Assembly (NCBI RefSeq): GCF_018967645.1
Contig: NZ_JAHLZF010000013.1
Location: 710-64,709, forward strand
Direction: 5' to 3'
Source: Allobacillus halotolerans
GTDB lineage: Bacteria; Bacillota; Bacilli; Bacillales; Alkalibacillaceae
Length of the DNA: 64,000 nt
Shown here: in pieces, positions 7,322 through 12,208 of the stretch
Layout of the letters: every line of letters begins with the position of its first letter
Position numbering within the stretch: position 1 is the stretch's first letter
Notes under the pieces: generated by a model
Told to the model about the DNA's origin: nothing
Database searches by the model: none
What the model saw: the letters and a program-made list of their open reading frames with translations, nothing else
Translations under genes and position numbers: made by a program

Positions 7322-7510
7322 CTTCAGTGTTAATTCGTTCGGCTTCAGTGTTTATCAGCCCAGCTTCAGGGTTAATCCGCACCGCTTCAGTGTTTATCAG
7401 CCCAGCTTCAGGGTTAATTTGCACCGCTTCAGGGTTAATCCGCATAACTTCAGCGTTAATCCATGCAGCTTCAGGGTTATTCTGCACACCTTCAGGGTTA
7501 ACCGTATAGC
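7322..7510. repeat. intergenic 21-bp tandem array A (9 units)
   Basis: Nine consecutive 21-bp units, each starting CTTCAG. The first 12 bases (CTTCAGGGTTAA) are nearly constant and the last 9 vary. The reverse complement has an ATTAACCCTGAAG core comparable with the ATTAAGCGGCT cores of arrays D and E. It lies between the 5' end of the esterase gene and the 3' end of the next minus-strand gene. The open frame across it is a by-product of a period divisible by three. Confidence 0.9.
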
Positions 7511-7552: not shown

Positions 7553-7942
7553 TTATTTTTCTTCTTTTACAAACAAGGTGAGCAAGAAAAAGAAGAAGAA
7601 ACTGGCTAGTAATGCAACACCACCACCGATATAGACTGATAGCGTGACGCCAGTAGGAAGTTCAAATGGCTTCACCATATATAACCACATGCCGATCGTT
7701 AATCCTACAGAACCGATAATGGCTGTCCAAACATGAAGCTTCGTTAATAGTGAATCCTTTTGTTGAAAGATCTTGTAATAAACGGCCCATCCGAAAAGGG
7801 TTAGCCAGCCGACGACAAGAATATGGGCATGCACCGCACGGAATGCATAAGAACCAGAACCGGCCATATGTGCACCTAAGATAGCACCAATCAGTCCGAA
7901 TATTCCCGCAAACTGCAATAAAATCTTACTGTTTTTATTCAT
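7553..7942 (-). CDS. small four-helix haem-copper-oxidase-like membrane protein, predicted HssR target
   Basis: 129 residues with four hydrophobic segments at roughly 7-27, 37-60, 69-90 and 101-124. Histidines H25, H38, H40 (VHAHILVVGW) and H70 lie in or at helices and recall helices of cytochrome oxidase or NorB subunit I, so haem binding is plausible but unproven. RBS TTGGAGGGG. A direct repeat matching the HssR box of hrtB lies 50-70 bases upstream (7994-8013), so expression should rise under haem stress. It follows hssS on the same strand but has its own promoter region. Confidence 0.75.
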   Translation of the reverse strand: MNKNSKILLQFAGIFGLIGAILGAHMAGSGSYAFRAVHAHILVVGWLTLFGWAVYYKIFQQKDSLLTKLHVWTAIIGSVGLTIGMWLYMVKPFELPTGVTLSVYIGGGVALLASFFFFFLLTLFVKEEK

Positions 7943-7993
7943 TCAATACCCCTCCAATTGTTCAAGGTTTCATTATATAAAGTATATCTCTTG

Positions 7994-8013
7994 AATATGA
8001 ACGGGGTATGAAC
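7994..8013 (-). promoter_or_regulatory. predicted HssR box upstream of the small membrane gene
   Basis: On the minus strand this reads GTTCATACC-CC-GTTCATATT, two 9-base direct repeats 11 bases apart. The copy before hrtB (12189-12208) has the same spacing and the same TTGAATATGAACG flank on the plus strand. The S. aureus HssR site is, as I recall, a GTTCATATT direct repeat with a two-base gap. Confidence 0.8.
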
Positions 8014-8044: not shown

Positions 8045-9427
8045 TTAACTTTTCGGTAATTCCACATCAATTGTTGTTCCTTCGTTTTCATTACTGTTTA
8101 TATGAATTGTTCCACCATGCAATTGGACGATGGCTTGGACAATCGATAGTCCTAATCCTGTACCTTCAATCAATCGCGTTCTCGCAGAATCGACTCGATA
8201 AAAACGATCAAAGATTTTCGCTTGTTCATCTGCTTTTATTCCGATGCCTGAGTCGATGAAGGAGACGCGCACAGATTCAGGTTTTTCTTCAACTAACAAT
8301 TCAATGCTGCCATCTGGCCTGTTATATTTAATGGCATTCGTTAATAAATTTTCCCAAACCGTATGGAGTAAAGCAGGATCAGCAGTAATCGTTACGTCCG
8401 GTAGTTTAAATCCGATTGATATATTTTTCTCATCCATTTGCCACTGATGATTCCTGATCAGTTCTTTAAGCTGTTCACCTATATGAACGGTAGTCTCTTT
8501 CATCAAATCTTCGTCGCGATCCAATGACGCAAGCAATAGTAGTTGTTTCGTTAATGTCGAAAGTCGGCTAATCTCACCATTAATGATGGAAATGTAATTG
8601 CTTTTTTCTTCTGGATTGAGAGAATCACTTTCTAGCAGGTTTGTATAGCCTTTTATATTGGATAAAGGTGACTGTATATCATGTGAGATGTTGGAAATAA
8701 ATTCTTTTCTCATTTCGTTTGTCTGTTCTAGCCTGTTAGCCATTCGTAAAAAATGAGAAGAAAGCTCCCCAAGTTCATCATTCCGCTCTGTATCGAGCTC
8801 ATCCACATTAAAATTACCTTCAGATAACGTTTTTGTTGCTGTCGTCAGTTTTGAAATGGGTTGAACTAAGTATTTTGTACTGAAAAGAACCATAATAATA
8901 CTGAGCAGAATGGTTAGGGCTAGCAGCCAACCAAATAAAATATGCATCTCATTGAAAAGCAGTTTAATGTCCGGACGAAGAAAGAGTGCATAGTTTTCAT
9001 CATTATGTGCTAATGGCACACCAATTGTATTTTTTAATTCATTCGCAAAGAAACCGGTCACGAATGTTTCTTGTGGGAAGTTTAAAATTCCATGAAAAAC
9101 ATTACCGCTTAATACTTGTTCAACAGCGGACTTTGAAAGGTTGTATTCCCGGAAAGGGGCACCGAATGACGTCTCATCGCCAGATTCATCGACTAAATAA
9201 AGTTGATATCCAATCGAAGAGATGTTTTCCAAGTAATCATGCAGGTTGACCTCAGGATGTTGTTCGGTGAATTCAGCGATATTCAATGCAATTTCCGTGT
9301 TCTTTTCGTCGTTTTCAGGTTTTAATTTTTGTTGATAATACGTATTGGAAATGAAAAAGGCAATAACGCTACTAAAAATCATAATGCCGATTGTAATCCA
9401 TACAAATTTAACATAAAGGGACCTCAT
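8045..9427 (-). CDS. hssS: haem-sensing histidine kinase HssS
   Basis: 460 residues: membrane helix at about 8-28, an extracellular sensor of ~130 residues, a second helix at ~164-184, a HAMP region, the phospho-acceptor His in SNISHDIQSP (H249), an N box (NLLTNAIKYN) and G boxes (DSGIGI, GTGLGLSI). Start overlaps the hssR stop by four bases, so the pair is cotranslated. Assignment to HssS rests on the neighbouring HssR and HrtAB and on overall architecture; the sensor domain itself is divergent. Confidence 0.85.
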   Translation of the reverse strand: MRSLYVKFVWITIGIMIFSSVIAFFISNTYYQQKLKPENDEKNTEIALNIAEFTEQHPEVNLHDYLENISSIGYQLYLVDESGDETSFGAPFREYNLSKSAVEQVLSGNVFHGILNFPQETFVTGFFANELKNTIGVPLAHNDENYALFLRPDIKLLFNEMHILFGWLLALTILLSIIMVLFSTKYLVQPISKLTTATKTLSEGNFNVDELDTERNDELGELSSHFLRMANRLEQTNEMRKEFISNISHDIQSPLSNIKGYTNLLESDSLNPEEKSNYISIINGEISRLSTLTKQLLLLASLDRDEDLMKETTVHIGEQLKELIRNHQWQMDEKNISIGFKLPDVTITADPALLHTVWENLLTNAIKYNRPDGSIELLVEEKPESVRVSFIDSGIGIKADEQAKIFDRFYRVDSARTRLIEGTGLGLSIVQAIVQLHGGTIHINSNENEGTTIDVELPKS

Positions 9428-10107
9428 TTGCGTTTAGCCTCCAATGAATACCCAACGCCACGCACGGTTTTAATTTGAAAATCATCTGTTAAATTAGAGA
9501 AGCGTTGCCTTAATCGTTTAATATGAACGTCGACTGTTCGTTCATCGCCTTCATAATCCCAACTCCAAACATGTTCAATTATATGTTCTCTTGAAAACAC
9601 ATGCATCGGATTGGATGCTAAAAAGTAGAGGAGTTCGAATTCCTTTAAAGGTAAAAGAATTGTTCGATCATCGATTTGGACTTCATATGTTTGTTTATTG
9701 ATTATCGTATTGCCGAATCGGATCTTCGAATCGTCATCTGAATGACTGTCGTACCGTCGAAACAATGCTTCGATTCGAAAGATTAATTCTTTCGGCTCAA
9801 ACGGTTTAACGAGATAATCATCTGTACCGGATTTAAACCCTTCCTCTTTGTCATTAATTTGATCTTTGGCTGTTAAAAGGATGACGGGTATATCGAATTC
9901 TCTTCGTATTTCTCTCGTTAAAGCAAAGCCATCCATGAAAGGCATCATGACATCGACGACTGCTAAATCACATTGTTCCTTATGAAGAATTTTTAATGCA
10001 TCTGTCCCGTCTTTTGCTTGAACGACGTGATAACCCGCTTCGGTTAAATGGATGGATACCAACTGCAAAATGTTTATATCGTCATCGACAACAAGAATTG
10101 TTTTCAT
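9424..10107 (-). CDS. hssR: OmpR-family response regulator HssR
   Basis: 227 residues. The receiver domain has VVDDD, the phosphorylated Asp52 in AVVDVMMP, and GTDDYLVKPFEPKELIFRI, a stretch very close to S. aureus HssR. The C-terminal winged helix has DYEGDERTVDVHIKRLRQR. It should activate hrtBA and, by the shared direct repeat, the small membrane gene at 7553-7942. RBS AAGGAGG. Confidence 0.9.
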   Translation of the reverse strand: MKTILVVDDDINILQLVSIHLTEAGYHVVQAKDGTDALKILHKEQCDLAVVDVMMPFMDGFALTREIRREFDIPVILLTAKDQINDKEEGFKSGTDDYLVKPFEPKELIFRIEALFRRYDSHSDDDSKIRFGNTIINKQTYEVQIDDRTILLPLKEFELLYFLASNPMHVFSREHIIEHVWSWDYEGDERTVDVHIKRLRQRFSNLTDDFQIKTVRGVGYSLEAKRK

Positions 10108-10423: not shown

Positions 10424-11107
10424 TCATTTATTTTCTAGGACCATTCCATCACTCATTTGTAGAATCCGGTCTACGTAAGTGAGCATTTCTTCATCGTGAG
10501 TAACCATTAACGTTGTAATATTCATCTTTTTCGTTAAGTCACGTATTAATTCCATCATATCTTTGGATCGTTTTGAATCCAAGCTTGCCGTCGGTTCATC
10601 AGCAAAAAGAACTTTTGGTTTGTGAATGATCGCACGAGCAACGGCAACTCGCTGTTTTTCACCACCCGATAATGAAGAAGGGTAGGCATTTTTTCGGTGT
10701 TCCATTCCAATCACATTTAGAAGCTGATCAATTTCTTTTTTTTGTTCTCTCTTTGATAATGTAGATTCAGAGACTTCCAGCATAAGCATCAATTGTTCTT
10801 CCACTGTGAGGAAAGGAACAAGGTGAGCAAATTGAAAGACGAAGCCAAATTCCTTTGCACGTATTTTACGTACTTGTTCAGAACTCATGGTTGTCAGGTT
10901 ATTGCCATCAAACAGAACTTCACCATCGGAAGCGGGTTGTAATCCTGCAGCAATCGTCAACAGTGTACTCTTGCCAGAACCCGATGTACCGACGAGTGCG
11001 GTGATTTCTCCTTCTTTTAGCGATAGGCTAATGCCTTTCAATATATTTTCCTCTATTTCACCATTTGTAAATGTTTTCTCTACTTCGTCCAATGTGAATA
11101 TCGTCAA
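10424..11107 (-). CDS. hrtA: haem efflux ABC transporter ATP-binding protein HrtA
   Basis: 227 residues from a TTG at 11107 that follows AAGGAGAGG at the end of hrtB; the longer open frame back to 11194 runs inside hrtB and is not credible. Walker A GTSGSGKST, Q-loop FQFAHLVPFL, signature LSGGEKQRVA and Walker B VLFADEPTASLD are all intact. It pairs with HrtB to export or protect against excess haem at the membrane. Confidence 0.9.
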   Translation of the reverse strand: MTIFTLDEVEKTFTNGEIEENILKGISLSLKEGEITALVGTSGSGKSTLLTIAAGLQPASDGEVLFDGNNLTTMSSEQVRKIRAKEFGFVFQFAHLVPFLTVEEQLMLMLEVSESTLSKREQKKEIDQLLNVIGMEHRKNAYPSSLSGGEKQRVAVARAIIHKPKVLFADEPTASLDSKRSKDMMELIRDLTKKMNITTLMVTHDEEMLTYVDRILQMSDGMVLENK

Positions 11108-11108
11108 A

Positions 11109-12143
11109 TTAATCCTCTCCTTGTTGGATCGCCCGAAGCGGCTCGATTTTTCTAATTTGTAATCCTGAAAGTGTAGCTCCGATAAAACCGACAACTAAGA
11201 AAATGATTGATAGCTGTGTTGTCGTCTCAAAGGTTAAGTGAAAAGGCATTCCTTCAGGTGCGATGCTATTGAACGCATGACTTAGCGAAATGGACAGCGC
11301 CAAAGCAATGATGGTAATGAATAACATTTGTGTCCAGATCATCTTGAACAGTCTACTTGTTTTGATTCCAACGGCTTTTAGAATTCCATATAAACCAATC
11401 TTTTGAATGTTCATCATGTAGAAAAAGATTGCAAACAACATGCCACTGATGACGATTAAAAACGAAACAATCATTGTTAAGGACATTTGTTCTGCGTTAT
11501 AACTCGGAATCGTACTTAAAAAATCTTTATTCGAGTAGGATTGTAATCCAGTGAAATTTTGTGCTGAATTTTCTCCTGGTAGGAAAACTAATTGCATTTG
11601 TTCAACGTTATACATCTTTTTATAGTCTTCACTATTAATATACGCGACTGGCGCATGGCTGAATTTCTTTTGATCAACGAAACCTTTGACGACTAATTCA
11701 TCACGGAGTTGATTGTTTGTTAATAGATCCCCCACTTTTATACCTTTCTCTTTCAACGAGCGATCTACGATGACTTCCCTTTCATCAACTTGTGTAAATA
11801 GTTTTGAATCGGTTGCTGTAACGAATGCAACACTTTGCTGTTTGTCCTCCTGATCAATCAAGAACCCCATTTGAATCGATAAGGCAACCGCATTTTGATG
11901 GTCATTCATGATTTCATGTTGAACATCCGAATCTATTCTAGATAGATTGTAAGTTTCCTCAGCATCTTCACTCATATAGAAATGACCTTCTGGTAAATCT
12001 TTTATTAAAGCGGCATTATCCTGTGACAATCCGTTCGCTAAGCCGGATATAATCATTGTCAATAAACTAACAAGGAAAATGATTGAGCCTAGAATCAAAA
12101 ATCTACTTTTATTTTTCTTGATTTCTTTCCAGCCAATGTTCAT
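11109..12143 (-). CDS. hrtB: haem efflux ABC transporter permease HrtB
   Basis: 344 residues of the FtsX/MacB fold: one N-terminal helix (~14-37), a large extracellular domain and three C-terminal helices. The segments SYNAEQMSLTMIVSF, FFYMMNIQKIGLYGILKAVG and GMPFHLTF match HrtB. First gene of the hrtBA operon; hrtA starts one base after its stop. An HssR direct repeat lies 46-65 bases upstream. Confidence 0.9.
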   Translation of the reverse strand: MNIGWKEIKKNKSRFLILGSIIFLVSLLTMIISGLANGLSQDNAALIKDLPEGHFYMSEDAEETYNLSRIDSDVQHEIMNDHQNAVALSIQMGFLIDQEDKQQSVAFVTATDSKLFTQVDEREVIVDRSLKEKGIKVGDLLTNNQLRDELVVKGFVDQKKFSHAPVAYINSEDYKKMYNVEQMQLVFLPGENSAQNFTGLQSYSNKDFLSTIPSYNAEQMSLTMIVSFLIVISGMLFAIFFYMMNIQKIGLYGILKAVGIKTSRLFKMIWTQMLFITIIALALSISLSHAFNSIAPEGMPFHLTFETTTQLSIIFLVVGFIGATLSGLQIRKIEPLRAIQQGED

Positions 12144-12188
12144 CTTTCCATTCCTCCAAGCATTTTGATAATTTTAGTTTACCCATTG

Positions 12189-12208
12189 AATATGAACGAC
12201 AGATGAAC
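12189..12208 (-). promoter_or_regulatory. HssR box upstream of hrtBA
   Basis: Minus strand GTTCATCTG-TC-GTTCATATT, direct repeats 11 bases apart, followed by TAAACT as a possible -10. It matches the known architecture of HssR-activated hrtAB promoters. Confidence 0.85.

Follow-up and report, generated by a model that had tools for sequence, protein, structure and literature searches.

A small oxidase-like membrane protein as a predicted second HssR-controlled unit beside hrtBA in an Allobacillus-type genome

We identified a 129-codon gene, for which we use the working name mini, that lies after hssS in an Allobacillus-type genome and is predicted from its upstream sequence to form a second HssR-controlled transcription unit beside hrtBA. 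The reading that we prefer, at a probability of about 45%, is that its product is an HssR-controlled membrane haem-handling protein, either a buffer or a shuttle, that serves HrtBA or an MMPL-family pump.

RESULTS

The genome has Allobacillus salarius and A. saliphilus as its nearest named relatives, and the window is the whole stretch of 64,000 nucleotides that we analysed from it. The minus strand carries, in order, hrtB, hrtA, hssR, hssS and mini. Open reading frames and Pfam matches identified an FtsX-type permease of 344 amino acids (hrtB, 11109..12143), an ABC ATPase (hrtA, 10424..11110, with an ambiguous start because the open frame extends to 11194), an OmpR-type response regulator of 227 amino acids (hssR, 9424..10107) and a sensor kinase of 460 amino acids with HAMP/HisKA kinase matches (hssS, 8045..9427). 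The mini gene (7553..7942, also minus strand, ATG start) was defined by the list of open reading frames, alignment, a fold model and a profile. The hss and hrt names follow from the gene order, the HssR box and an alignment of the kinase to ten of the Staphylococcus type, each of which has a box inside its own 4.4-kb locus; among the NCBIfam families listed for the window genes, an hss- or hrt-specific name was absent. The window kinase has one full-length relative in its own genome, and the remaining matches lie mainly over the kinase half. Kinase, regulator, exporter and direct-repeat box are the same as in the HssRS-HrtBA system of S. aureus, B. anthracis and L. monocytogenes, and the ten Staphylococcus-type loci (L351 to L360) share the box at two or fewer mismatches, with an exact box in five. 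The window differs from that system in having mini as an extra predicted regulated unit.

For the mini protein, we found no NCBIfam or PDB sequence match, its Pfam matches were sub-threshold (E values of 0.18 or worse) and it reached the family cut-off in neither Pfam nor NCBIfam; there was one weak PHROG match (E = 0.004). A second family copy in the same genome (G000:C20:22290-22661, locus L038) is 51% identical and lacks an HssR box, the best candidate having four mismatches. Downstream of mini, at 7322-7501, there is an array of ~21-bp direct repeats (GCTTCAGGGTTAATC...).

Alignment and pattern scans of the genome and the window placed an HssR box, GTTCATACCCCGTTCATATT, before mini at 7994..8013 on the minus strand (read 8013-7994). 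The upstream alignment and pattern scan also placed a -10 element, TATACT, on the same strand at 7981..7986, which is fixed at +27 to +32 from the box start. Pattern scans revealed the same architecture before hrtB, where the box GTTCATCTGTCGTTCATATT (12208-12189) and the -10 element TAAACT occupy 12176..12208 on the minus strand. The distance from box start to start codon is 71 bp for mini and 65 bp for hrtB. The earlier note on this DNA had seen only two HssR-type repeats at the locus, and the 13-mer TTGAATATGAACG indeed occurs exactly at 7991-8003 and 12186-12198, just before mini and hrtB, and nowhere else in the window. When up to three mismatches were allowed, the 13-mer gave 26 window matches, which is chance level (35 expected). 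Scanning with the full promoter (GTTCAT-N5-GTTCATATT, with TANNNT at +27 to +32) gave three window matches at up to three mismatches versus 0.15 expected by chance. In the 2.72-Mb assembly, this pattern has two exact matches, those ahead of hrtB and mini, and the next-best matches have three mismatches (n = 4, versus 5 for a reversed control). Because these are the only two exact full promoters in an assembly that is 95.55% complete, the predicted HssR regulon of this genome consists of hrtBA and mini. A TATAAT ending at 7972 was considered as the -10 element of mini and was rejected since it lacks conservation, whereas the TATACT at +27 is conserved.

We collected 79 named-species loci from one scan; they were picked by similarity to the window protein and are therefore biased to close relatives. 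A box with the -10 element in fixed phase was located 59 to 97 bp upstream of mini in 75 of the 79 loci, and on this basis mini, which the earlier note had predicted to be an HssR target, is very probably one. The best box within 300 bp upstream had no mismatch in 21 loci, one in 25, two in 25, three in 3, four in 2 and six in 3, and the background in the same loci was 7 sites at two or fewer mismatches in 1.79 Mb on both strands, or about 0.001 per 300-bp search. A repeat-anchored alignment of the 75 upstream regions showed T27 in 74, A28 and T32 in all 75, and a weaker but conserved TTGTAA block at -12 to -7. All 19 hrtB boxes taken from the named loci, counting those within 200 bp and excluding Allobacillus, showed the same -10 phase. 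The exceptions were a locus where mini lies behind hrtBA and the hrtBA box has one mismatch (L045), a locus cut by a contig end (L097), a genome without HssS at 1e-60 (L083) and a genome whose HssS is at 35% identity (L107). The box upstream of mini is also perfect in L082 (Jeotgalicoccus meleagridis) and L117 (J. coquinae), where the gene itself is apparently broken by an in-frame stop and by split frames, respectively.

The hssS gene was present in 58 of the 79 loci (as a fragment only in L041), and it ended at most 400 bp upstream of mini in 55, with a gap of 78 to 303 bp (median, 104 bp). The linkage to hss genes, which the earlier note had wanted looked for in the neighbourhoods of other species, is therefore found there. 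We found hrtB in 25 of the 79 loci. In L043, L052, L056, L060 and L078, the sole box precedes a mini-hrtB-hrtA run, and in five Staphylococcales loci (L078 among them) a box-bearing mini is surrounded by hssS, hrtB and hrtA. The 21 loci without hssS at hand, which include Jeotgalicoccus and Viridibacillus, kept the box at two or fewer mismatches in 18 cases. Their genomes encode HssS elsewhere in 19 cases (E values up to 1e-60), with at least 50% identity in 17, and HssS was not found at 1e-60 in the genomes of L065 and L083. The box of L065 is perfect although its metagenome-assembled genome of 1.4 Mb has no HssS match at 1e-60, which makes this locus a counter-example. The earlier note had named orthologues lacking both the repeat and linkage to hss or hrt genes as evidence against its proposal, and we did not find this combination for the close orthologues.

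Beyond these close relatives, the mini family is wider than its HssR-controlled part. We drew 199 genomes evenly from the order and found HssS (E values up to 1e-90) in 59, a mini-family gene in 68 (78 hits) and both in 26, a co-occurrence that is not significant in this sample (26/59 versus 42/140, P = 0.07). Of 72 upstream regions checked, 13 had a box with the -10 element, so box-less mini-family genes are commoner, and all 13 genomes with such a mini gene also have HssS (P of about 5e-8, with kinship ignored). One further locus, L306, has a three-mismatch box at the right distance without the -10 element and was left out of the tally; counting it would give 13/14. Because few family members are boxed and only those show the HssS association, the family as a whole extends past the part predicted to be under HssR. 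An HssS-like gene lies within 8 kb in 14 of the 78 family hits, 7 with a box and 7 without, and the few box-less members that we inspected had no common neighbour theme except MMPL in 5 of 20. Staphylococcales genomes carried a mini gene in 28 of 150 cases, with a profile match absent in the other 122; the box was present at two or fewer mismatches in 17 of the 20 loci fetched, about half of which are genomes already among the named loci. A tree of 100 proteins, which rests on few columns and has many unresolved forks, placed the boxed rows mainly in two groups with box-less rows between them. None of the ten Staphylococcus-type genomes with HssS and a box is among the genomes listed with mini, and mini is therefore not essential to the system.

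The box alone is no proof of membership in the HssR or haem response, since it precedes other genes too. The exact repeat was present in 82 of 397 genomes versus one control hit in each of two. The 89 distinct exact boxes precede hrtB-like genes (14), hssR-like genes (10), mini (5), MMPL genes (2), an ABC gene (1) and genes that match no query (51), and 6 have no 60-codon frame nearby. The accessible text of PMC3968170 describes a repeat much like this one as the target of HitR in B. anthracis, a regulator that engages in cross-talk with HssR. In four genomes (L158:1558-2016; L160:1007-1465, minus strand; L208:263-709; L213:1715-2185, minus strand), a protein of 149 to 157 amino acids directly follows an exact HssR-type box. 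It has a conserved LHxxGIxxWxG motif, a sub-threshold DUF4149 match in one of two sequences scanned and a structure prediction of low confidence (pLDDT, 71.4), and in G229 an HssS-like gene is 550 bp away from its box. The regulon may have recruited this protein as a second small membrane component.

We searched whole genomes for hrtB in all 33 hssS-linked loci that lacked it in the fetched stretch. A close hrtB gene (63 to 74% identity) was present elsewhere in 20 genomes, 9 had only a distant one (27 to 33%), and 4 had none. Each of the 20 close genes had TANNNT in the right phase behind a box with zero to two mismatches in 16, three in 3 and four in 1, while the 9 distant genes had no box at three or fewer mismatches (0/9). 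Given these box-driven hrtB genes, mini and hrtBA appear to be expressed from separate loci in 20 genomes; the other 13 lack a box-driven hrtB. An MMPL-family pump gene lies directly downstream of mini in 16 of the 79 loci, mostly with a 4-base overlap of the kind that may reflect translational coupling. Of the 13 genomes that lack a box-driven hrtB, 12 have MMPL next to mini (L109 does not), versus 3 of the 20 that have one (L067, L086 and L092; P = 1.4e-5, with kinship ignored). A more distant branch has HssRS-like genes followed by the box, MMPL and mini, and the box is exact in G131 and has one mismatch in G186. Jeotgalicoccus has two ABC-2 permeases and an ATPase near mini. The earlier note had paired mini with HrtAB, but HrtAB is apparently not the only partner, as the 12 genomes with MMPL indicate. 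A mini gene that persists while its pump changes from HrtBA to MMPL speaks against a dedicated HrtB subunit and in favour of substrate handling or a link to the kinase.

In Calidifontibacillus oryziterrae, the interval between hssS and mini encodes a membrane-fusion protein and an AcrB-type RND pump behind an HssR-type box of their own (L049:1300-6384). We considered that this pump replaces HrtBA there and rejected the idea because the genome's own hrtB, one of the 20 close genes, sits just before hssRS, ~1.5 kb before hssS, which makes the RND pump an addition. The boxed RND pump is a candidate second haem exporter.

An AlphaFold2 model of the mini protein built with 92 sequences has four helices (pLDDT, 94.9; pTM, 0.87), as the earlier note had described for this 129-residue protein. 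In Foldseek, the top three matches were oxidase subunit I, with E values of 0.1 to 0.9, and none reached 0.001. With VIA-align 2, the first 31 rows were chains of the haem-copper superfamily (oxidases and two quinol-dependent NO reductases; Z, 14.8 to 11.5), with 119 to 129 residues aligned near the C-terminal part of subunit I; for R. sphaeroides subunit I residues 376-526, 128 of the 129 residues aligned (rmsd, 3.1; Z, 14.2). The first fold from outside the superfamily was styrene oxide isomerase (8pnu; Z, 11.4), which we take to be a haem-b membrane enzyme. Unrelated helical bundles can score up to about 13 to 14 in VIA-align, and because such Z values can arise by chance, the sequence evidence matters. 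The Pfam COX1 family was matched by 10 of the 92 mini relatives (best E value, 9e-9), and for the window protein itself we found no COX1 match above the Pfam gathering cut-off. The family profile matched cbb3 oxidase CcoN (E = 0.0021), with H38 and H40 of mini aligned with H345 and H347, one HxH motif on the other; this match came from the broader alignment, and a profile of close orthologues alone gave one chance PDB match. The helix-X HxH pair of the cbb3 oxidase presumably ligates the two haems. Model, structural matches with Z of about 14 to subunit I and the CcoN profile match together support the oxidase-like character that the earlier note had recognized, and we hold with good confidence that the fold is derived from an oxidase. 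Mini is probably a stand-alone copy of the four-helix repeat that ends subunit I, helices IX to XII to judge by the residue ranges; it retains the HxH pair of helix X and nothing else of the enzyme.

H25, H38 and H40 are present in 41 of 41 aligned orthologues, and H70 is present in 35, with Q in the other six. In the wider set of 92, H38 and H40 are in all 92, H25 is in 86 and H70 is in 82. Of the four histidines that the earlier note described as placed like those of haem-binding helices, three are thus invariant among the orthologues, and two of these, H38 and H40, fall on the oxidase HxH. The charge distribution suggests that the N terminus is inside and that the histidine cluster is near the outer face of the membrane.

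According to the accessible text of PMC11237747, HssS of S. aureus probably binds its haem on the outward side of the membrane and requires F25, R94, F128 and R163. The equivalents in the window kinase are F24, R93, F127 and H162, aligned via L360, whose numbering fits the S. aureus residues. Of 58 kinases (the window kinase and 57 from the loci), all have F127, 53 have F24, 51 have R93 and at least 93% have H162. The kinases linked to mini thus resemble haem sensors, having mostly retained the residues required for haem sensing in S. aureus. Mini-linked HssS has His162 where the Staphylococcus-type HssS has the haem-anchoring Arg163.

DISCUSSION

The accessible text of two reviews (PMC12670364, PMC11442138) gives hrtBA as the HssR targets, with hssRS added in one legend, and leaves a mini-like gene unmentioned. 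In titles, abstract openings and passages of the open-access literature, we did not find mini as a part of the HssRS system, which is weak evidence because subscription papers fall mostly outside that scope. The accessible parts of three papers (PMC12670364, PMC11442138, PMC7576875) describe HsmA of C. difficile as a haem-induced membrane protein that binds and stores haem rather than pumping it. By this description, HsmA may be likened to mini in working principle only; it is under the MarR-type regulator HsmR in those texts, whereas mini is predicted to be under a two-component system.

Mini has in common with haem-copper oxidase subunit I (PF00115) the fold of the last four helices, with its HxH on that of cbb3 CcoN. 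It differs in having four helices rather than twelve or more and in lying next to hss and hrt genes, not oxidase genes. Subunit I carries a helix-II haem ligand and CuB ligands, and these are without counterpart in mini. DUF2871 (PF11070) of Staphylococcus-type genomes, likewise a small membrane protein, is about as long as mini and also has an HxH motif, and 6 of the 92 mini relatives have weak Pfam matches to it. We rejected DUF2871 as the family of mini because the window protein has no match above the cut-off and the DUF2871 loci lack the box (0 of 10 at three or fewer mismatches); none of the 58 genomes listed for DUF2871 is among the 28 listed for mini. In all 10 genomes inspected (L232 to L241, L351 to L360), the box-less DUF2871 gene and hssS share a contig at a distance of ~11 to 42 kb, which may be plain synteny.

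In the reading that we prefer, HssS would sense membrane haem and HssR would then turn on the exporter and mini jointly. Mini would bind haem near the outer membrane face via H38 and H40, with H25, at a site that probably lies between the protomers of a homo-oligomer, and would lower free membrane haem by sequestering it and/or handing it on to whichever exporter is there. Haem binding by mini is a likely prediction, and the role as a buffer or shuttle is a more tentative one. A bolder version, modelled on the pseudo-threefold oxidase core and in our judgement doubtful, is that a homo-oligomer, such as a trimer, forms haem-lined membrane pores, an oxidase core reassembled out of a single repeat, and is the non-respiratory, general haem-capture module of the HssRS defence, with a co-translated MMPL pump having taken over where HrtBA left the regulon. 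If this were true, the mini-coupled MMPL proteins would be unrecognised haem exporters.

Instead of handling bulk haem, mini could be an accessory of HssS that binds haem or the kinase in the membrane and tunes the kinase, for example by feedback. hssS is its steadiest neighbour (55 of 79 loci, versus 25 for hrtB and 16 for MMPL), in 7 further genomes of the even sample an HssS-like gene (39 to 46% identity) ends at most 50 bp upstream and leaves no room for a box, the mini-linked kinases have H162 rather than R163, and other intramembrane kinases use accessory membrane proteins, as stated in the accessible text of PMC11237747. However, the same text reports that haem accompanies HssS of S. 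aureus when the kinase is purified from E. coli, and haem binding by HssS therefore needs no such partner; most loci without hssS at hand (18 of 21) still have the box at two or fewer mismatches, and the operon coupling of mini with MMPL favours a pump. We consider an accessory role unlikely, though not so unlikely as the accounts that follow. A haem-dependent redox protein like HsmA, shielding the membrane by peroxide, quinone or gas chemistry, would fit the oxidase-type fold with its HxH and the position of styrene oxide isomerase, a presumed haem-b enzyme, as the first outside match (Z, 11.4). HsmA is its precedent in the accessible literature. With three invariant histidines only and no visible second metal site or electron-entry motif in mini, we find it quite unlikely.

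The pairing of mini with MMPL in 16 of 79 loci also allows that the true signal and substrate at those loci is another hydrophobic toxicant (a fatty acid, quinone or antibiotic), with haem incidental, and HitRS, a relative of HssRS, responds to envelope-active compounds in the accessible text of PMC3968170. We judge this very unlikely, as the haem-sensing residues are mostly kept in the 58 kinases and the oxidase-type HxH favours haem. That the box arose by chance, or that mini is a hitch-hiking neighbour without a role in haem biology, is hardly credible: the exact box does precede many other genes (51 of 89 without a query match), but the -10 phase is fixed in 75 loci, and the box persists where hssS is not nearby.

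On our preferred reading of mini as a haem-handling protein, the HssRS haem response has one more conserved component, as yet unnamed. A further prediction is that MMPL pumps coupled to mini, where a box-driven HrtBA is missing, form a new class of haem exporter. The 129-residue protein would offer a chance to study a haem-binding oxidase repeat in isolation and makes testable how cells handle haem that is already in the membrane before a pump removes it. Mini may thus be an overlooked part of survival under toxic haem.
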